Shown here in pieces: positions 72 to 28,622 of a stretch of DNA of 32,836 bases. The translations under genes and the position numbers were made by a program. Numbering within the stretch: position 1 is the first letter of the stretch; each line of letters opens with the position of its first letter. The stretch comes from a virus: the IMG/VR virus record IMGVR_UViG_3300030380_002187, positions 1 through 32,836 of that record. The stretch is one strand, 5' to 3'. The notes under the pieces were generated by a model. That model saw only the letters and a program-made list of their open reading frames with translations. It did no database searches and had not been told where the DNA came from.

Positions 72-98
72 CGCAGGTCGCAGGTCGCAGGTCGCAGG
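72..98. repeat. CGCAGGT heptamer tandem repeat (4 units)
   Basis: Four CGCAGG cores spaced exactly 7 bp apart (72, 79, 86 and 93) form a short perfect tandem array. It lies between the terminator at 25-53 and the promoter-like sequence at 116-143, in non-coding DNA. The same core recurs, with T or C as the seventh base, in the array at 999-1113 inside the 3' end of the nuclease gene. I do not recognise a named repeat family. Confidence 0.85.
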
Positions 99-115: not shown

Positions 116-143
116 TTGCTTTTATGTGCGAATCTGATACAAT
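116..143 (+). promoter_or_regulatory. Candidate sigma70-type promoter for the 172-924 gene
   Basis: TTGCTT (116-121) and TACAAT (138-143) are separated by 16 bp and end 28 bp before the start codon at 172. The -10 matches 5 of 6 consensus bases and the -35 only 3 of 6. An upstream terminator (25-53) means the gene needs its own promoter, which supports the call. Confidence 0.45.
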
Positions 144-171: not shown

Positions 172-924
172 ATGAAAAATAAAACGCCAAACGGTTATAC
201 CATTTATGACGGGCCAAGCTTACTGGATAACATGCCTATTATTTGTGTCGCGTTAACTGGTAAATCTAGAAATAGCAAAACTGGCGCGATGATGCAAACT
301 GTTATCATCCGCAAAGACATCCCGCCAATTGAAGCAAATAGAACTGGCGCAGATTATTCTATTTGTGGCGAGTGTCCACACAAGGGCACGCCAACAAATA
401 AGGACAAAGGCACGGCCGCAGGCCGCGCTTGTCACGTTACATTGATGCATAGCCCAAATACAGTTTATAAACAATTTCATCTCGGAGCGTATCCGCATTT
501 AAGCCAGGACGAATTACCGGAGCTCGGTAAAGATTGGAAAATTAGGATCGGTTTTTATGGCGACGGGGCTTGTATACCAAGCGATATCTGGAAAGCTTTG
601 TTGTCACAAGCTAAAGGCCATACCGGATATAGCCACCAGATAAACCAGTCACAAGCGGATTTTCTTTCAAGCTTGTATATGCAATCAGTTGAAACCGAGA
701 TGCAGGCCTTTGCGGCATGGTCAAAAAACATAAGAACTTTTAGAATAATAAAAGATGTCTCGGAAGTAGTAGACGGAAAAGAGATCTTGTGTCCTGCATC
801 CGAGGAAGCAGGTAGCAGAACAACATGCCTCGAGTGTGGCTTATGTGCAGGTACTATGACTAAATCCAAAAAGTCAATTGCCATTGTCGCGCATGGTGCA
901 GGCAAGAAACACTTTGCAGCATAG
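172..924 (+). CDS. Conserved phage/plasmid-type protein with two Cys clusters (function unknown)
   Basis: 250 aa. Two cysteine clusters are visible: C65-x2-C68-x-H70 with C87, and C207 followed by C219-x2-C222-x2-C225, so two zinc or metal sites are likely. Between them lie a GFYGDGAxIP segment (about 127-136) and TGYSHQ (151-156). From memory the CPAS-EAG-T-C-C-LC-G C-terminus and the final KSI-I-AHG belong to a family of unknown function common in phages and plasmids (I believe DUF7227; not verified). The gene is monocistronic: its own promoter candidate lies upstream, a purine-rich Shine-Dalgarno (GAAAGAAG) precedes the ATG, and a hairpin terminator follows 4 bp after the stop. It converges on the nuclease/terminase unit on the other strand. 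One CGCAGG core (417-422) lies within it. No function is assigned. Confidence 0.85.
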   Translation: MKNKTPNGYTIYDGPSLLDNMPIICVALTGKSRNSKTGAMMQTVIIRKDIPPIEANRTGADYSICGECPHKGTPTNKDKGTAAGRACHVTLMHSPNTVYKQFHLGAYPHLSQDELPELGKDWKIRIGFYGDGACIPSDIWKALLSQAKGHTGYSHQINQSQADFLSSLYMQSVETEMQAFAAWSKNIRTFRIIKDVSEVVDGKEILCPASEEAGSRTTCLECGLCAGTMTKSKKSIAIVAHGAGKKHFAA

Positions 925-928
925 CATC

Positions 929-954
929 AGGAGGCCTTGTGCCTCCTCTTTTTT
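929..954 (+). terminator. Rho-independent terminator after the Cys-rich protein gene
   Basis: A 7-bp perfect stem (AGGAGGC 929-935 / GCCTCCT 941-947) has a 5-nt loop and is followed by CTTTTTT at 948-954. It starts 4 bp after the stop codon of the 172-924 gene and sits between two convergent genes. Confidence 0.9.
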
Positions 955-965
955 AATGATAGATT

Positions 966-1433
966 TTAATTACGCATTTTCTCCTGTGTATAGAGAGGCG
1001 CAGGCCGCAGGCCGCAGGTTTGTGTCTCTCTGTTCCATAGATCCAAGGCCGCAGGTCGGAGAGCCGCAGGTAGGCCGCAGGTGTCTCCTATATATAAGGC
1101 CGCAGGCCGCAGGTCGGAGATGCAAGATCCATGGATCTGTAAGGCTAGAGCCCCATCAAATAAAAATACATCGCCTTGGAGAGGTGCGTGGAGCAAGAAA
1201 AAACTCACGCCACCACAACGAGAATGCGCCAGATGCCAAGCAATCTGTGACTTTTGCACCTTTGCCCTATCATTTTTTATCATTTTTAATTCAACCCATA
1301 GTGGTACGCCATTCATACAAATATAACAGTCTGGCATTCCTTCGGATACGCGGTTCTCAAGCCTTTGAAAATGCGTCTTTTTCGGGAAGCTTTTCTTCAA
1401 TACTTCCCATAATTGTTTCTCCGTTTTTGGCAT
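966..1433 (-). CDS. VRR-NUC / PD-(D/E)XK-type nuclease with a repeat-derived C-terminal tail
   Basis: 155 aa. The first ~100 residues have the layout of small phage VRR-NUC/Holliday-resolvase-like nucleases: EKQLW near the start, then RLENRVSEGMPDCY with the GxPD motif at about 32-35, then WVELKM (about 46-51) supplying the E-x-K catalytic half. IAWHLAHSRCGG is also typical. After about residue 105 the sequence becomes low-complexity, with repeated LRPAAL and LPAALRPAAL units encoded by the CGCAGG repeats (reverse complement CCTGCG). So roughly the last 45 residues look like coding sequence created by repeat insertion. The start overlaps the terminase small subunit 3' end by 77 bp; I kept ATG 1433 because the conserved N-terminal helix begins there. 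Such nucleases often sit beside terminase genes and may help DNA processing or packaging (inference). Confidence 0.8.
   Translation of the reverse strand: MPKTEKQLWEVLKKSFPKKTHFQRLENRVSEGMPDCYICMNGVPLWVELKMIKNDRAKVQKSQIAWHLAHSRCGGVSFFLLHAPLQGDVFLFDGALALQIHGSCISDLRPAALYIGDTCGLPAALRPAALDLWNRETQTCGLRPAPLYTQEKMRN
999..1113. repeat. Irregular CGCAGG repeat cluster inside the nuclease gene
   Basis: Eight CGCAGG cores occur here: 999, 1006 and 1013 (7-bp period); 1050, 1065 and 1076 (irregular); 1101 and 1108 (7-bp period). The longer unit CCGCAGGTCGG occurs twice (1049-1059 and 1107-1117). The cluster falls within the 3' third of the - strand nuclease gene yet keeps the reading frame open. It is the same unit as the intergenic array at 72-98. 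Confidence 0.85.
1125..1138. repeat. 14-bp perfect palindrome
   Basis: AGATCCATGGATCT is its own reverse complement. It adjoins the CGCAGG cluster inside the nuclease gene. Part of the sequence (AGATCCA) also occurs at about 1040-1046, so it may be part of the repeat-associated structure. Confidence 0.6.
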
Positions 1434-1911
1434 CTTCTGTCACCTTGTACTCGCCTTCAACGAATGCGTGTGGATATGATTTTCTAAGCTCATTTAATCT
1501 GCCTACTATTTCGTCTCTGGAAAGACTATCTATCTGGTGTATGTGGTTTGCCTCGCGTCTGTCTATTGTAAGACCGCCAAGGCTCGAGCGTATCTTTTCG
1601 GCATTGATTGCCGCAGAGTATTGCCCCGCCTCTTCAGCACCTTCTGAGAGCTCTGCAAGCCTTTTTAATTGTCCAAGCAAAGTAATTCCATATTTCTTTT
1701 CTCGAGTCTCTCTTAATTCTTTTATAAACTCGACTACTTCTGGATATGATTTTCCATCCAATAATTTATATGCATGTTGTGCGGCCGAGTCAGAAGCATA
1801 TCCTGCCAGTCTAGCACAATCTGCGTTTGAGTTTTTGCCTTCAATATATAATTTTGCAAATTCTTTCTGTCTTTGTGTTAGACCAGAAGGCCTTCCAAGT
1901 TTCTTTTCCAA
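1357..1911 (-). CDS. terS: Terminase small subunit (TerS-like)
   Basis: 184 aa. The N-terminal segment has the small-terminase pattern LTxRQKEFAKLYIEGKNxxADCARLAGY (about 11-38), followed by a helical middle and a charged C-terminus. This matches the HTH DNA-binding part of the Terminase_2-like family, which recognises phage DNA for packaging with the large subunit. The start codon is TTG (1911-1909 on the - strand), placed 9 nt after a strong GAGGAG Shine-Dalgarno at 1926-1921, and no ATG start fits. The 3' end overlaps the nuclease gene by 77 bp, so the two are co-transcribed. The large terminase is not adjacent in this window, which is unusual. A candidate promoter with repeats lies upstream (2018-2045). 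Confidence 0.8.
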   Translation of the reverse strand: MEKKLGRPSGLTQRQKEFAKLYIEGKNSNADCARLAGYASDSAAQHAYKLLDGKSYPEVVEFIKELRETREKKYGITLLGQLKRLAELSEGAEEAGQYSAAINAEKIRSSLGGLTIDRREANHIHQIDSLSRDEIVGRLNELRKSYPHAFVEGEYKVTEDAKNGETIMGSIEEKLPEKDAFSKA

Positions 1912-15347: not shown

Positions 15348-18300
15348 TTATTGTCCTTGTAGTCTTCTTACTATTTGTAAATTTTTCAAAGCGTCTATTG
15401 GGTTGCCACCTAGAAGAGATGGGTCTCGAGGCTGAACGGGGGCTGACTGAGCCTGTGTACTGGGAGGAACAACACTAGCAGTAGCCCCCGCCTGCGGTGT
15501 TGCCGATTGAATGGGTTCGGCAACTGGGGCAGAGGGTGTTATTTCTTGTGTGACAGGTTCGGGTTGCGGTGTTTCTGGCTCAAGACTTCTACCTCGTAAC
15601 TCTCTTCTTATATCATTCAACTCTGAACGTGGAAACACAGAACGTAAGTCATTCTCTCTGAGATTTTTAGAAACAGTTCGGCTGCTAACATCGATAGGGT
15701 CAAACTCTCCACGCATCACTCGACCAAGGTCACCTACGTTTGCTCTTTTTAATATCTTTCTTATCTGCCTGTCTTCAAGTCCCATAGTTCTCATGTCTTC
15801 AACGATACGAAACAGGTCGCGTTGAACACGGAACTTCGCTTCATTTGCATCTCTGTAAGCTCGTATAAATTGTTCCGAAGATGCGTTAGCTCTATTAGAT
15901 ACCGTGGTGTAAATATTACTAGAGTTTTTACTACGCTCTGAGATTTCATAACCCTTAAACCTAAGACCAAGTGGAACATCAATTGGATTTTCAGTGATTC
16001 CTGTAAAGGCTCTTGCAAGTTCAGAAGACAATTCTCTTTCTCTGTCATATCTATCTTTTGAGCTAATTCCTGTTTCTTCTTCTAAGCCAAGACCCGACAC
16101 CAATCCTCTGGCAAAACGACTTGGTTCAGGAGTTCCCCCAGATACTGTAGCAGGAAAAACAGAAGGAACTATTGCGTCAAGTATATGAACAAAGCTCTTA
16201 CCTATCTTTGTTCCTGCGTCATCCTCTGGGTTATAAACTTTAGCACCACTTATAGTTTGACCGCCACGACCACCCACAAGTTGCCCTGCTTGTCTAACTC
16301 CAAGCAACTCTGCTTCAGGATCTAACACATCTCTTAATTTTGAAGTGATGATTGCTTCTTCAGTAAATGGTTTAAACAATTCTCCCAATGCTTCATTAGC
16401 TGCTTGCCCTGCAATCTGTGCTCCATTGTATCCTTTTAATTTACCTTCTTCTGCTTTATTCATCGCACCATTTACAACTCTTTCGAGCAAGTCATATGGA
16501 TTTGAATAGCTATAGTTGATATAGGTCGGGAGTCCATCTTCATCTCTACCAGTTGGTATGAGTCTAGCATTCTTTTCCCACTCAGGTGCCATGGATCTTT
16601 GATATGCATCCATTTCTTCTTTTGTAACTCCTGAGTTCATGTACGCATAATGACTCAAAGCGGCAGGAGCAATTCCAAATGTAGTAGCAGCACCTGTTAG
16701 TCTACGAAGTCCTATCTTTCTAATTTCTGCATTATCACTTGCAAGCTCATCAATACCACGAGCAACTGTATTTACCCCTGTTCTAAGTATTTCATACGGA
16801 AATGCTATGAAGTTACCTACCGGGGCTCTTCTTAAAGTTCTTATAAACTCAGGTGCCATGTTATAGTTTGGAACTGTATTACGAACTATATCTGCGGCTT
16901 GTTCTTTCAATGCTTGTTCAGAAGGAGCACCTTCTTTAACTCCACGATAGGCATTTCTAAGTTTATTTAATTCAAAATTATAATTATATATTTTCCATAT
17001 ATCGTCACCTGCTTGATACAGATTTTCTGCTTTCTTGCCCACGTTGCCAAGCATCGAGCCAAGTCTATTATCTGTAATTTTACTTCCAAATTTTCTACCC
17101 ACAGGAATGCCGTTTACGGAGGCATCATCCGTGTAACCAAGACCTTTTTGTAGGAGTTGTTGAATCTCTCGTAATTCTGCTTGTGAGCCAACGACACCTA
17201 GCTGTTGTAACTCTTGAAAGCTTTTCAAAGCCGCATCATTAGAAACGTTTGTAAATAAATTATCGTAAACAAGTCGTAACGACTCGCCAAGATTTGCGCC
17301 TCTCCCAATATTGCCTTGTGCTGCTGCAAACAAAGACGCTGTTGTTACATTTCTTATTTGTGTTATTGGAGATAGAACAGTCTTACCGTATTGAGTAGCA
17401 CCTTTTAATCGTAAGAATCCAGAGTATGCATCTCGCACTGTGTTTCCAATTACGTTTGTGTCGTTAATCACAAACCGATTCATGTCGTTAAAAACTCTTG
17501 TAGGAACAGCATAACCTCTTAAGGTACCAAATTTTGATTTCTCAAGAGATTCGTTCCTATCAATAATAGTAAACCCCTGTTTATCTAAGGCATCTATTTC
17601 AGCTTCACTTAATCCTCTTGTATCTTTAAATAGTTTTCCAATACCAGCATTATCTTTAGCCAACTTTCTTATGCTAGAAAAATATTTATCGGCTGCTATA
17701 AACTGTGACAAATCAGAGACAGTTCCTAGAAAATTTTCTTTTGTGTCTTTCACCTCTCCTAATAAAGCCCTTTTGTAATCAGCCATATTAGTTCTGTTTT
17801 TAAATAAATTGGGATTTATTTGTATGTCTGCAATACTTGCAAAGCGTGTTTTAGGATCTGCCTTAGTGTTAATTCTTCGGTGCCTATTTAAAAAATTTAT
17901 AGCAGCGGCTTCTGCTTGAGCATCTGTAATTGGGTCCATGCTTATAAACTGAAACTCATCTCCACCTTCAACAGTTCTAGCAACACCTAAACTCGTTGCT
18001 CTGGATTCATCGACTCTTGCAATTAGTGAGAGTTCTTCCAAGGTAGAACTTCTGTCTGATTTAAAACCAGCAACCGCTGCACTGAGAACTTCTTTTGTTG
18101 GCTGATATTTTGCGTCTTCAAACGAGCGGTATCTTCTTCTGAGGTAATTATTTATGTTGGCTTCTATCTCTCGTCTTAGTTCTGTACCAATTTTTTTACT
18201 ACCATCTTTAGTAGTGATCTCATCTAAACCTTTAAGGTAATCGCTGTTTAATATATCGTTGTTCAGTTGTTGAACTAGGCCACGCATCTTACCCGCTTCA

Positions 18301-19568
18301 CGTTGTACGTTTTCAGGCAACTCTTCAAAGGCTCTTTGTCTTGCCTCCGCTGTCGGGCCAACCATGAACTCTTCTAAGTTATTAAAGATACTTTGTTCTG
18401 TTAAAGGACTAGCTTCACTTGATACTTTGCTTGCTTCTTTTAATGCCTTATCTACTTCTTTATCGAGCCCAGCAAGAATAGATTTAGCTCCCTTAACAAT
18501 TGAATCTGTTGTACCTACGGTGAGAAGTCTTTGTGTTGCTATCTCTTGTGGTAAAGAACCACGGTATCTAAATACTTTTGCTATATTTTCTATAGTGTTT
18601 CCTACTGGTCCTGCTTCACCTGAAATAACACTGTCTTCTAACTTCGCCATTGACTGACCAACAGCCTGCCCTGCTTTTTTTAATCCAGCAGCCGTGCCTC
18701 TAACTACATCCTTTACAACAGGTGCTTCAGTAAGAACCTTACTTGTGCCTCTTGCCGTTGCACCAAGAGCGGCAGGAACAGCCAAGGTCAGTGCACCAGT
18801 TTCCGTGCCTATTGCTAATTTGTTTGTAAGTCTCCGAAGAGCCTCTTCTCTACCAGATAAACCTATCTCTTGGTTGGTTTGAGTTGGACCTCCCTCAAAG
18901 AAATCAGCTATAGTTGTTGTTCCATCTGTAGCAACAGCCGCATCAACCAGACCAGCCGCTGCTAATTGTTGTGCACCAAGAGCTAGTTTTTCACCCTTTG
19001 TCAAAGGATCTAATTTAGCAGGAGCAGGAGCCAGTTGACCAGGTTTTGGTGCAGGTGGTTTAGTCATGCCCGTTGCTTTTTTAAATGCCTTTGAATATCT
19101 TTTGGCTTTGCTTAATTTACTTACAGCACTTGCGGCACCAAGACCAGGAATAACAAACTGAACAATTGCCTCAGAACCTTTGCCTATCAAACCTTCTGGG
19201 TCGATACCTGCGAAGTCTCTTAATTTAGTTGCTGCTTTTGTAACGGAAGATGCGTAGTCTGTATCAGCAGCAAGGTCCACGGCTGATGCTCCGAGTTCCA
19301 AGATACCTTCTGGTATGGCAATTAGACCAGAGCCAATGCCCTCAAAGAACTCTTGTGCTACACCCTCGGTTGGTTGTTCTGGTTCAGGTTGAACGGTGGG
19401 GGGTTGAGTAGGAGAAGTTTGAACGGTGGGGGGTTGAGTAGGAGAAGTTACACTAGAAAAGTCAACTCGTTTTTTTATAGCTTCTATAATTTGTTCTCTC
19501 GTAGCCCCTTCAGGTCCCTCTATACTATACGTTTTTCCGTCAGGCCCTTGAATGCTATATGTAGGCAT
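15348..19568 (-). CDS. Large internal virion / DNA-ejection protein
   Basis: 1406 aa. It starts MPTYSIQGPDGKTYSIEGPEGATREQ; the GPxGAT-EQ pattern is a common N-terminal module of phage internal proteins. Residues ~50-65 are a Pro/Thr/Gln linker with a perfect 10-residue duplication. There are Ala/Gly-rich, weakly hydrophobic segments in the first 300 residues, a long helical middle, and a Pro/Gln/Thr-rich C-terminal ~110 residues. I see no transglycosylase or other enzyme motif. Size and place (last structural gene, before the endolysin) resemble T7 gp16, the largest ejectosome protein. The assignment as ejection protein is inference from size and order. Confidence 0.7.
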   Translation of the reverse strand: MPTYSIQGPDGKTYSIEGPEGATREQIIEAIKKRVDFSSVTSPTQPPTVQTSPTQPPTVQPEPEQPTEGVAQEFFEGIGSGLIAIPEGILELGASAVDLAADTDYASSVTKAATKLRDFAGIDPEGLIGKGSEAIVQFVIPGLGAASAVSKLSKAKRYSKAFKKATGMTKPPAPKPGQLAPAPAKLDPLTKGEKLALGAQQLAAAGLVDAAVATDGTTTIADFFEGGPTQTNQEIGLSGREEALRRLTNKLAIGTETGALTLAVPAALGATARGTSKVLTEAPVVKDVVRGTAAGLKKAGQAVGQSMAKLEDSVISGEAGPVGNTIENIAKVFRYRGSLPQEIATQRLLTVGTTDSIVKGAKSILAGLDKEVDKALKEASKVSSEASPLTEQSIFNNLEEFMVGPTAEARQRAFEELPENVQREAGKMRGLVQQLNNDILNSDYLKGLDEITTKDGSKKIGTELRREIEANINNYLRRRYRSFEDAKYQPTKEVLSAAVAGFKSDRSSTLEELSLIARVDESRATSLGVARTVEGGDEFQFISMDPITDAQAEAAAINFLNRHRRINTKADPKTRFASIADIQINPNLFKNRTNMADYKRALLGEVKDTKENFLGTVSDLSQFIAADKYFSSIRKLAKDNAGIGKLFKDTRGLSEAEIDALDKQGFTIIDRNESLEKSKFGTLRGYAVPTRVFNDMNRFVINDTNVIGNTVRDAYSGFLRLKGATQYGKTVLSPITQIRNVTTASLFAAAQGNIGRGANLGESLRLVYDNLFTNVSNDAALKSFQELQQLGVVGSQAELREIQQLLQKGLGYTDDASVNGIPVGRKFGSKITDNRLGSMLGNVGKKAENLYQAGDDIWKIYNYNFELNKLRNAYRGVKEGAPSEQALKEQAADIVRNTVPNYNMAPEFIRTLRRAPVGNFIAFPYEILRTGVNTVARGIDELASDNAEIRKIGLRRLTGAATTFGIAPAALSHYAYMNSGVTKEEMDAYQRSMAPEWEKNARLIPTGRDEDGLPTYINYSYSNPYDLLERVVNGAMNKAEEGKLKGYNGAQIAGQAANEALGELFKPFTEEAIITSKLRDVLDPEAELLGVRQAGQLVGGRGGQTISGAKVYNPEDDAGTKIGKSFVHILDAIVPSVFPATVSGGTPEPSRFARGLVSGLGLEEETGISSKDRYDRERELSSELARAFTGITENPIDVPLGLRFKGYEISERSKNSSNIYTTVSNRANASSEQFIRAYRDANEAKFRVQRDLFRIVEDMRTMGLEDRQIRKILKRANVGDLGRVMRGEFDPIDVSSRTVSKNLRENDLRSVFPRSELNDIRRELRGRSLEPETPQPEPVTQEITPSAPVAEPIQSATPQAGATASVVPPSTQAQSAPVQPRDPSLLGGNPIDALKNLQIVRRLQGQ
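19390..19449. repeat. Perfect 30-bp tandem duplication in the linker of the internal protein
   Basis: Two identical 30-bp units (19390-19419 and 19420-19449) lie back to back within the 1406-aa gene. On the coding strand each encodes the same ten residues (TSPTQPPTVQ). The perfect match suggests a recent slippage event in a disordered linker. Confidence 0.9.
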
Positions 19569-26793: not shown

Positions 26794-28622
26794 TATGCGG
26801 CTTCCTCTGTCCAGTTAGGGTTTTGTGACGGTTCCTCTTCACTCCAAGATGGAGATTGACTTGCGCTTGTTTCTGACCAACTAGGAGTTTGAGAAGCAGT
26901 TTCTTCACTCCAAGAAGGTGTTTGGGATGGGCTAATCTCTGAATAGTTTGCATTCTGATCAGGAACTATCCTTCCCCACACGACTACATTACCAAGAATC
27001 GCTGTCGTTGACAATCCTGTTAGTGTAACAACAGACTGCGCTACTACAGTTACTGTTCCAACTGTAGTGGTGGCTGATACTCCTGTAACAGGCGCAAAAG
27101 TAATTGTCTCAACGGTAGGACTTCCGACAGACCCTGTAGCAGAGATACCTGTCAATGTTACAGAACAATCCCCTGTAACAGTCTCATCCCCTATAGCAGT
27201 GGTGGCTTCTTCACCTGCTACATCAATATTTGCACCTGCGCTTACAGTTTCATCTCCTACGGCAGATGTAAGCCCTGGAACACTTGAAAGTACAGCCGTA
27301 ACGCTTATTGCTACGGTTTCGTCACCAACCGCTCCTGTAGCTTCTTCACCTGTGGCCGTGAGAGAAGCATCTCCAGTAACGGTTTCATCGCCCACAGCCC
27401 CAGTTGCCTCTAGCCCTGTGAGATCTACAGTTGCCCCCGCTGTAACAGTCTCGTCACCAACCGCTCCTGTAGCTTCTTCACCTGTAAGGGCTATAGTGGC
27501 TGATCCTGTAACAGTCTCGTCACCTACTTCACCAGTTGCCTCCACACCAGTTACATCATACTTTGATTCAATAACAACAGAGCCAACCGCCCCTGTTCCT
27601 TCTACCCCTGTTGGAGATATGTTAGCCGTACCGACAACGGTTTCGTCACCCACACTTAGAGTAGAAGCTTCCCCAGATACCCCTGTAACAGCGGCTCCAC
27701 TTATGCTCATGTCCCCTGTTCGACCAACAGCTTGCTCACCTGTGGTAGTAAGTGTTGAACTTCCACTTACGGTTTCATCCCCAAGACCTGTAGTGGCAGA
27801 CACCCCTGTAAGAGAGACAGAAACATTTGCAGTGACAGAAACAGTGACGCTTCCTAAATTAGCTGTCGCAGCAACACCGCTGACTACAACATTACTGTCT
27901 AAACTTGTATCAACGGTAACAGAGCTAACCGCTCCTGTAGCAGACACCCCTGTAACGGATACGGGGGTTTCGAGAGATACAGTCAGATCGCCCACTGAGC
28001 CTGTGGCAGATAATCCTGTTGCAGATGCAGATGCTCCTGCTGCCACTGTTTCGTTACCAACTGAGCCTGTGGCAGATAATCCTGTAACACTCAAAGTTGA
28101 GCTTGCAGTAACGGTTTCATTACCAACTGAACCTGTAGCAGATGCCCCTGTAGGTGAAACAGATGCTGTGCCAGTAACGGTTTCATTACCAACTGAACCT
28201 GTAGCAGATAATCCTGAGACTGCGATAGATACTGAAGTTGAAGCGGTTTCATTACCAACTGCCCCTGTGCCGGAAAGCCCCGTCACAGATACATTTGCTG
28301 AACCCGTTACGGTTTCATCGCCAACATTTAGAGTAGCCCCTGTACCAGATACACCTGCGATACCTGCCCCTAGTACAGTAACAGAGCCAACACCGCCCGT
28401 TGCTGCGATACCTGTTAAAGTCGTAGAGCTTGCGCCAGTTACCGTTTCGTTGCCAACAGCCGAAGTGGCCGCAACACCTGTAACAGAGACAGTAACACCG
28501 ATTGCACCGCCCCAGCCACCATCACCCCATGCATCTCCACCCCAAGTGCCAGAAGCAGGAGTGGTTACTTGGTCAGCATCAGCAAAAGGACGTTCTGAAA
28601 ACGCTGAAAAAGGCAACGCCAT
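26793..28622 (-). CDS. Fibre/adhesin with ~23 tandem 22-residue repeats
   Basis: 609 aa. A short N-terminal segment with a Gly-Trp motif (GTWGGDAWGDGGWGG) leads into about 23 repeats of roughly 22 residues, consensus T(G)xSATGSVGxETVTGxAxV. Two homogenised blocks are visible: SATGSVGNETV in the first half and EATGAVGDETV in the second. The C-terminus is a separate Ser/Pro/Trp repeat (SQTPSWSEE-like, about five copies). The regular beta-prone period suggests a solenoid or extended fibre. There are no cysteines in the main repeats, no signal sequence and no protease motif. The repeats keep the complementary strand open over 1.5 kb. Fibre function is inferred from composition and context. Confidence 0.7.
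   Translation of the reverse strand: MALPFSAFSERPFADADQVTTPASGTWGGDAWGDGGWGGAIGVTVSVTGVAATSAVGNETVTGASSTTLTGIAATGGVGSVTVLGAGIAGVSGTGATLNVGDETVTGSANVSVTGLSGTGAVGNETASTSVSIAVSGLSATGSVGNETVTGTASVSPTGASATGSVGNETVTASSTLSVTGLSATGSVGNETVAAGASASATGLSATGSVGDLTVSLETPVSVTGVSATGAVSSVTVDTSLDSNVVVSGVAATANLGSVTVSVTANVSVSLTGVSATTGLGDETVSGSSTLTTTGEQAVGRTGDMSISGAAVTGVSGEASTLSVGDETVVGTANISPTGVEGTGAVGSVVIESKYDVTGVEATGEVGDETVTGSATIALTGEEATGAVGDETVTAGATVDLTGLEATGAVGDETVTGDASLTATGEEATGAVGDETVAISVTAVLSSVPGLTSAVGDETVSAGANIDVAGEEATTAIGDETVTGDCSVTLTGISATGSVGSPTVETITFAPVTGVSATTTVGTVTVVAQSVVTLTGLSTTAILGNVVVWGRIVPDQNANYSEISPSQTPSWSEETASQTPSWSETSASQSPSWSEEEPSQNPNWTEEAA

Follow-up and report, generated by a model that had tools for sequence, protein, structure and literature searches.

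Heptamer arrays resembling a phage control element flank an exchangeable gene slot and overlap a nuclease gene in ocean phages

Tandem heptamers in a large group of ocean phages look like an undescribed phage control element and not like a repeat that lengthens a protein. Place, period, strand and promoter phasing of the arrays are conserved, the codons at their cores are frozen within an ancestral nuclease tail, and the gene cassette that they bracket is swapped between relatives. We propose, with belief about evenly balanced, that the heptamers form cis-acting, operator-like heptad arrays, one of them overprinted on the nuclease gene. In the literature searched, which gave partial coverage, we found no description of CGCAGG or heptamer arrays in phages. 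The window, which is the whole 32,836-nucleotide stretch of DNA analysed, carries the following features:

72..98, + strand: array A, four CGCAGG(T) heptamers end to end, 5' of the DUF7227 gene (TRF)
116..143, + strand: promoter-like TTGCTT-16-TACAAT, 17 bp after array A (from sequence)
172..924, + strand: cassette gene for a cysteine-rich DUF7227/phrog_2554 protein of 250 aa (Pfam 3.2e-07, phrog_2554 4.3e-61)
929..955, + strand: intrinsic terminator of the cassette gene, AGGAGGCCTTGTGCCTCCT then CTTTTTT
966..1433, - strand: PD-(D/E)XK nuclease gene, 155 aa, Hjc/RecU-like fold (phrog_2165 7.4e-24)
999..1113, + strand: array B, with eight CGCAGG cores written antisense into the 3' end of the nuclease gene
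999-1018, 1050-1081 and 1101-1113, + strand: the three core groups of array B
1014..1121, - strand: nuclease residues 105-140 (LRPAA helices), whose codons carry array B (AlphaFold2)
1357..1911, - strand: gene for the terminase small subunit (Terminase_2, phrog_51), which overlaps the start of the nuclease gene (Pfam 4.2e-08, phrog_51 2e-15)

The window contains CGCAGG 28 times, a count reached by 0 of 100 shuffles (expected, 7.3 +/- 3.1), and GCCGCAGG 11 times where shuffles predict 0.28. The original prediction had placed CGCAGG cores in the 3' end of the minus-strand nuclease gene, where we count eight, and the same heptamer outside that gene, where TRF reports a perfect 7-bp array at 72-98 (CGCAGGT x 3.9, period 7, 100% match). 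A pattern search of the window's record found tandem cores confined to arrays A and B and to one strand. Both positions are conserved, array A on the promoter side in relatives and array B with its core codons frozen across the window clade. Isolated cores at 417, 5022 and 6902 were likewise confirmed, together with further ones. Leaving out the nuclease, sense-strand CGCAGG in the window's genes numbers 14 against 6.3 +/- 2.4 under synonymous-codon shuffles; because scattered CGCAGG in five relatives lies at or near the expectation from such shuffles (at most about two standard deviations above), the scattered cores are mostly a matter of codon usage and composition rather than of array spread. 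A genome-wide spread of the core, to which these shuffles lend no support, was rejected. Separately, structural genes of the window hold a perfect 30-bp tandem duplication and 66-bp tandem repeats (19389-19449 and 27994-28268).

Loci gathered by nuclease protein search alone were compared for two clades, that of the window and that of the cultured SAR11 phage HTVC027P, whose nucleases are ~26-36% identical. At least three CCTGCG lie within 160 bp after the nuclease domain in 47/48 window-clade loci; a different heptamer, GCTTGNN, occupies the same spot in the HTVC027P clade, with at least three GCTTG within that distance in 80/81 loci. Lag-7 identity after the nuclease domain is 0.42 in the window clade and 0.53 in the HTVC027P clade, compared with 0.26-0.27 in shuffled sequence and, for the HTVC027P clade, 0.18-0.26 at the other lags between 3 and 13. 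Between the clades, place, period and strand are kept and the word differs. The HTVC027P nuclease encodes LDACGLKLEPCCLGLEACGLHLENLN within its GCTTGNN array. Most records are metagenomic fragments, HTVC027P being the one cultured array-bearing phage; in the long records searched, arrays occupy one locus per genome in one orientation. The array does not spread at random: it keeps to a single locus and a single orientation, next to promoters and on either side of one gene slot.

Neutral or selfish heptamer arrays, with codons frozen by array homogenisation only, would fit the differing core counts of close relatives, a cluster of 4-bp repeats at the corresponding place in a cultivation-independent relative and the triple heptamer's matches to bacterial genomes (at least 120 stretches, of which almost none is related). 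We hold this to be very unlikely, as against it stand one locus, one strand, the same neighbours in two diverged clades and promoter phasing. Inferring a host from the heptamer's occurrence in bacteria was rejected: among the matches listed, only L400, a 5-kb contig from an Opitutae MAG bin with nuclease, terS and arrays (62% identity), carries phage genes, and it could be a weak host hint or a mis-binned phage contig.

The HTVC027P nuclease (L311, MN698241, 16222-16584) is unannotated, and gp32 on the opposite strand (16499-16747) covers the nuclease end and the array. CAAGC arrays are greatly expanded at 1394-2934 of G020, the record of L258, with 29 triple matches in ~3 kb.

The AlphaFold2 model of the nuclease (37-sequence alignment, pLDDT 88.6) matches Hjc/RecU Holliday-junction resolvases in Foldseek, with E from 4e-5 to 1e-3. 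Its repeated LRPAA-type segments, seen in the translation as SDLRPAALYIG and GLPAALRPAALDLW, had been read in the original prediction as an addition after the end of the domain, in which a spreading non-coding repeat supplied about 45 residues. AlphaFold2 instead places residues 101-130, which hold most LRPAA segments, inside the fold as helices: the predicted helices of the tail span residues 105-111 and 121-140, and pLDDT is 94-96 over residues 101-130 and 81 over 131-140, with residues 141-155 poorly modelled. Repeat-free homologues with plain C-termini of the same length were looked for and, for the most part, found. The L156, L157 and L043 homologues carry the plain tail SSDGLVAKSLYQGKNFDQILYHILRLAPNN and that of phage 023Pt_psg01 carries KLYESKSIHGLITDHRETPSLAINDWDHIQRCLLASSSDA, all of similar length, and DSL-LC04, HTVC023P and other homologues, with no repeat or one coding core, have plain C-termini that are similar in length too. 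The L156/L157 nuclease is 50% identical and has one core in its coding part, the array lying 3' of the stop codon. Members of the window clade keep the pattern D-L....L(Y/W).G.......LR....(W) whether LRPAA is present or not. Because homologues without the repeat have tails of similar length and the pattern is kept without LRPAA, the repeat, judged from homologues and model, is spelled into an old nuclease C-terminus and is not the source of the tail; residues 141-155 alone (~10-15 terminal residues) look like a late extension. The repeat is indeed read in frame at the gene's 3' end, as lengthening would have it, but with the tail inside the fold and similar tails in repeat-free homologues, that account is already contradicted save for those terminal residues, and we give it almost no credence. 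Directly after the plain nuclease stop of 023Pt_psg01 (L319, 4320-4465) lie clustered GCTC/GCTT 4-bp repeats, at the place where relatives have heptamers.

What survives of the earlier reading is that the same heptamer occurs in and outside the ORF and that its DNA is constrained. Among 49 dereplicated loci of window-clade relatives, some of them first found via the repeat and so possibly inflating the counts, the fixed-base codons of CCTGCGN are frozen: Leu is CTG in 47/48, Pro is CCT in 41/42 and Ala is GCG in 46/46 and 27/27. The wobble base of the intervening Arg, left free in the heptamer, varies as much as wobble bases elsewhere in the gene (CGG 19, CGA 12, CGT 10), and the sample found by protein alone still shows the array in 47/48 window-clade loci. 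Judged by its codons, array B is constrained as DNA within the nuclease gene.

Promoter phasing is seen in the arrays outside the nuclease. Since the promoter criteria were set after seeing examples, the controls outweigh the absolute numbers: in the HTVC027P clade, a sigma-70-like promoter (TTGACA with at most one mismatch plus a -10 box, within 14 bp after the array on the slot-gene strand) abuts 60/90 of these arrays, compared with 23/608 random positions, 59/1800 shuffles and 5/79 nuclease-tail arrays, and in the window clade the layout array-TTG..16/17..TAnnnT is found in 74/102, compared with 50/920, 269/2040 and 14/106, respectively. The controls thus come to ~4-13%. In the HTVC027P clade the modal offset is 0 bp and the spacer 17 bp. 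The window's -35 box is weak taken alone, and a generic promoter scan missed TTGCTT-16-TACAAT. HTVC027P itself has two arrays outside the nuclease, which terminate within the -35 boxes of gp33 and gp34, and in the infection transcriptome of this phage these two genes are the sole members of 'extra cluster 2', high at 6-9 h (PMC12753301).

One gene lies between the two array clusters, of the GP88 family in 21/26 records tested, or DUF7227. GP88 proteins match DUF7227 weakly, the window's slot protein is related to Pfam GP88 with a conserved C..C signature, and a C-terminal CP...C..C.(L/A)C signature is common to GP88 and DUF7227 proteins; an AlphaFold2 model of the DUF7227 protein (pLDDT 55.9) was too poor for use. 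The slot is swapped in close relatives, with DUF7227 replaced by GP88-type genes. In the pairs L212/L125, L033/L027 and L053/L106, the nuclease DNA is 95-98% identical and the slot genes are different, homology ending ~35-85 bp inside array B and returning ~70-80 bp before array A. Unrelated small ORFs fill the slot in some HTVC027P-clade phages (L279, L290). A third slot-gene type encodes 220 aa in L214 (offset 240-902 after the nuclease) and L188 (offset 249-911), its protein bearing CPEQQGH..C..CTLCWD, a GP88-like C-terminal signature.

This pattern raises the question of whether conserved direct repeats flanking the slot promote gene exchange between phages, a recombination boundary to which the different genes beside near-identical nuclease DNA, the breaks in homology near the arrays and the unrelated ORFs of L279 and L290 would all conform. 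Ordinary homologous recombination in conserved flanks would produce the same pattern, however, and the 0-bp and 17-bp promoter phasing would be left unexplained, so we consider such a boundary quite unlikely.

Hairpins are found near the arrays of several records. Those of L025, L049 and L118 (for example L049, 2249-2340) are terminator-like, with the core pair AAAACCTGCGGTCGCAGGTTTTT as stem. In L021, L023, L027, L033 and L050, the first triad of array B sits in a hairpin loop with T runs after it, and the stem varies on both sides (AGAGGCG/CGTCTCT, GGGCC/GGCCC, GGGTCG/CGACCC); from its sequence, this hairpin looks like the slot gene's terminator.

Terminase genes adjoin this region. All window-clade loci with sufficient flank (93/93) and all HTVC027P-clade loci (63/63) have terS adjacent. 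Immediately beyond the other side of the arrays, relatives have the large terminase gene, a part cut off by the window's left end. Lying between terS-nuclease and terL, the arrays could be a terminase recognition region, pac- or cos-like, bound by the terminase small subunit, and a Hjc/RecU-like nuclease would suit DNA resolution before packaging. The pac sites of P22, SPP1 and P1 may lie in or by terS, with short repeats. We nevertheless think a packaging site unlikely: arrays that lie outside the nuclease are in phase with promoters, and the G009/L043 clade keeps its arrays with no terS found in a 22.8-kb fragment.

The promoter phasing also speaks against replication-origin iterons, placed partly within a coding gene like those of lambda ori. 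The arrays of six to seven related records coincide with the minimum of cumulative GC skew and with the main strand switch, and AT-rich tracts often precede arrays. HTVC027P has arrays, yet its skew is monotonic and follows gene strand; because of this, the direction of transcription accounts for the skew signal, and the skew minimum was rejected as independent evidence for an origin. An origin therefore appears highly improbable.

Under the operator-like reading that we favour, a sequence-specific protein, probably phage-encoded, would bind the tandem heptads and assemble along adjacent units. The arrays bracket a one-gene slot by the terminase genes, usually holding a GP88/DUF7227-family gene, and the upstream array, whose end meets the -35 box in the sigma-70-like promoter of that gene, would control the gene's timing. 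The partner array is overprinted on the 3' end of the convergent nuclease gene, where LRPAA-type codons in the C-terminal helices let protein and heptads both be kept. Because no promoter adjoins the nuclease-borne array, regulation alone does not explain it; it may act as a distal partner site, for example by looping to the promoter array ~0.8-1 kb away. Among the Pfam matches listed for 79 mostly small proteins near arrays there was no RHH, ParB or regulator HTH, and likewise no ParA or omega-like gene, although a divergent small RHH can escape such a search; the terminase small subunit was the sole DNA-binding family recognised in both protein sets.

More tentatively, the region may be a control slot of abundant ocean phages in which one-strand heptad arrays time whichever gene lies between them, the DNA code of the phage protein having shifted from CGCAGGN to GCTTGNN and one array residing in the nuclease helices. 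If true, this would amount to a system of heptad operators evolving as one unit while overprinted on a protein, its apparent binding word changed in concert between clades, and to a clean case of one DNA stretch serving as both an apparent binding-site array and the coding sequence of a folded helix. It would also offer a testable entry into gene control of uncultured marine phages and those of SAR11, whose regulatory DNA is hardly described, and cultured HTVC027P, with its existing infection RNA-seq, makes the idea checkable.

Several known systems share features with these arrays. Cyanobacterial STRR heptamers are dispersed over genomes, and Rickettsia palindromic elements are inserted palindromes in ORFs. 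The phage arrays resemble STRR in being short tandem heptamers, but keep to one region per record; like the Rickettsia elements they lie inside ORFs, but there is no inserted block, and repeat-free homologues are no shorter. The iterons of lambda ori lie in gene O, with units of about 19 bp. Both consist of direct repeats within a phage gene whose reading frame is kept open; the phage arrays differ in their 7-bp units, in having no initiator link and in the monotonic skew of HTVC027P. With the pac sites of P22, SPP1 and P1 they have in common short repeats beside terminase genes, possibly in coding sequence, whereas promoter-phased arrays bracketing a swappable gene set them apart. Streptomyces SARP regulators act at heptameric direct repeats at promoters (PMC5930380). 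The phage heptamers, unlike SARP sites, are contiguous, with a spacing of 7 bp. SARP heptamers are spaced about 11 bp. The nearest mechanistic analogue, as distinct from membership, is omega of pSM19035, an RHH ParB whose dimers bind contiguous 7-bp repeats, 5'-WATCACW-3', at promoters (PMC9499535). Shared with omega sites are contiguous, non-palindromic 7-bp repeats (TRF period 7, lag-7 peak) in several arrays that lie at promoters (60/90 and 74/102 outside the nuclease); unlike omega sites, the core is CGCAGGN/CCTGCGN or GCTTGNN and not WATCACW, all units have one orientation and one array lies inside a coding gene. In pSM19035, one protein both regulates and organises DNA.
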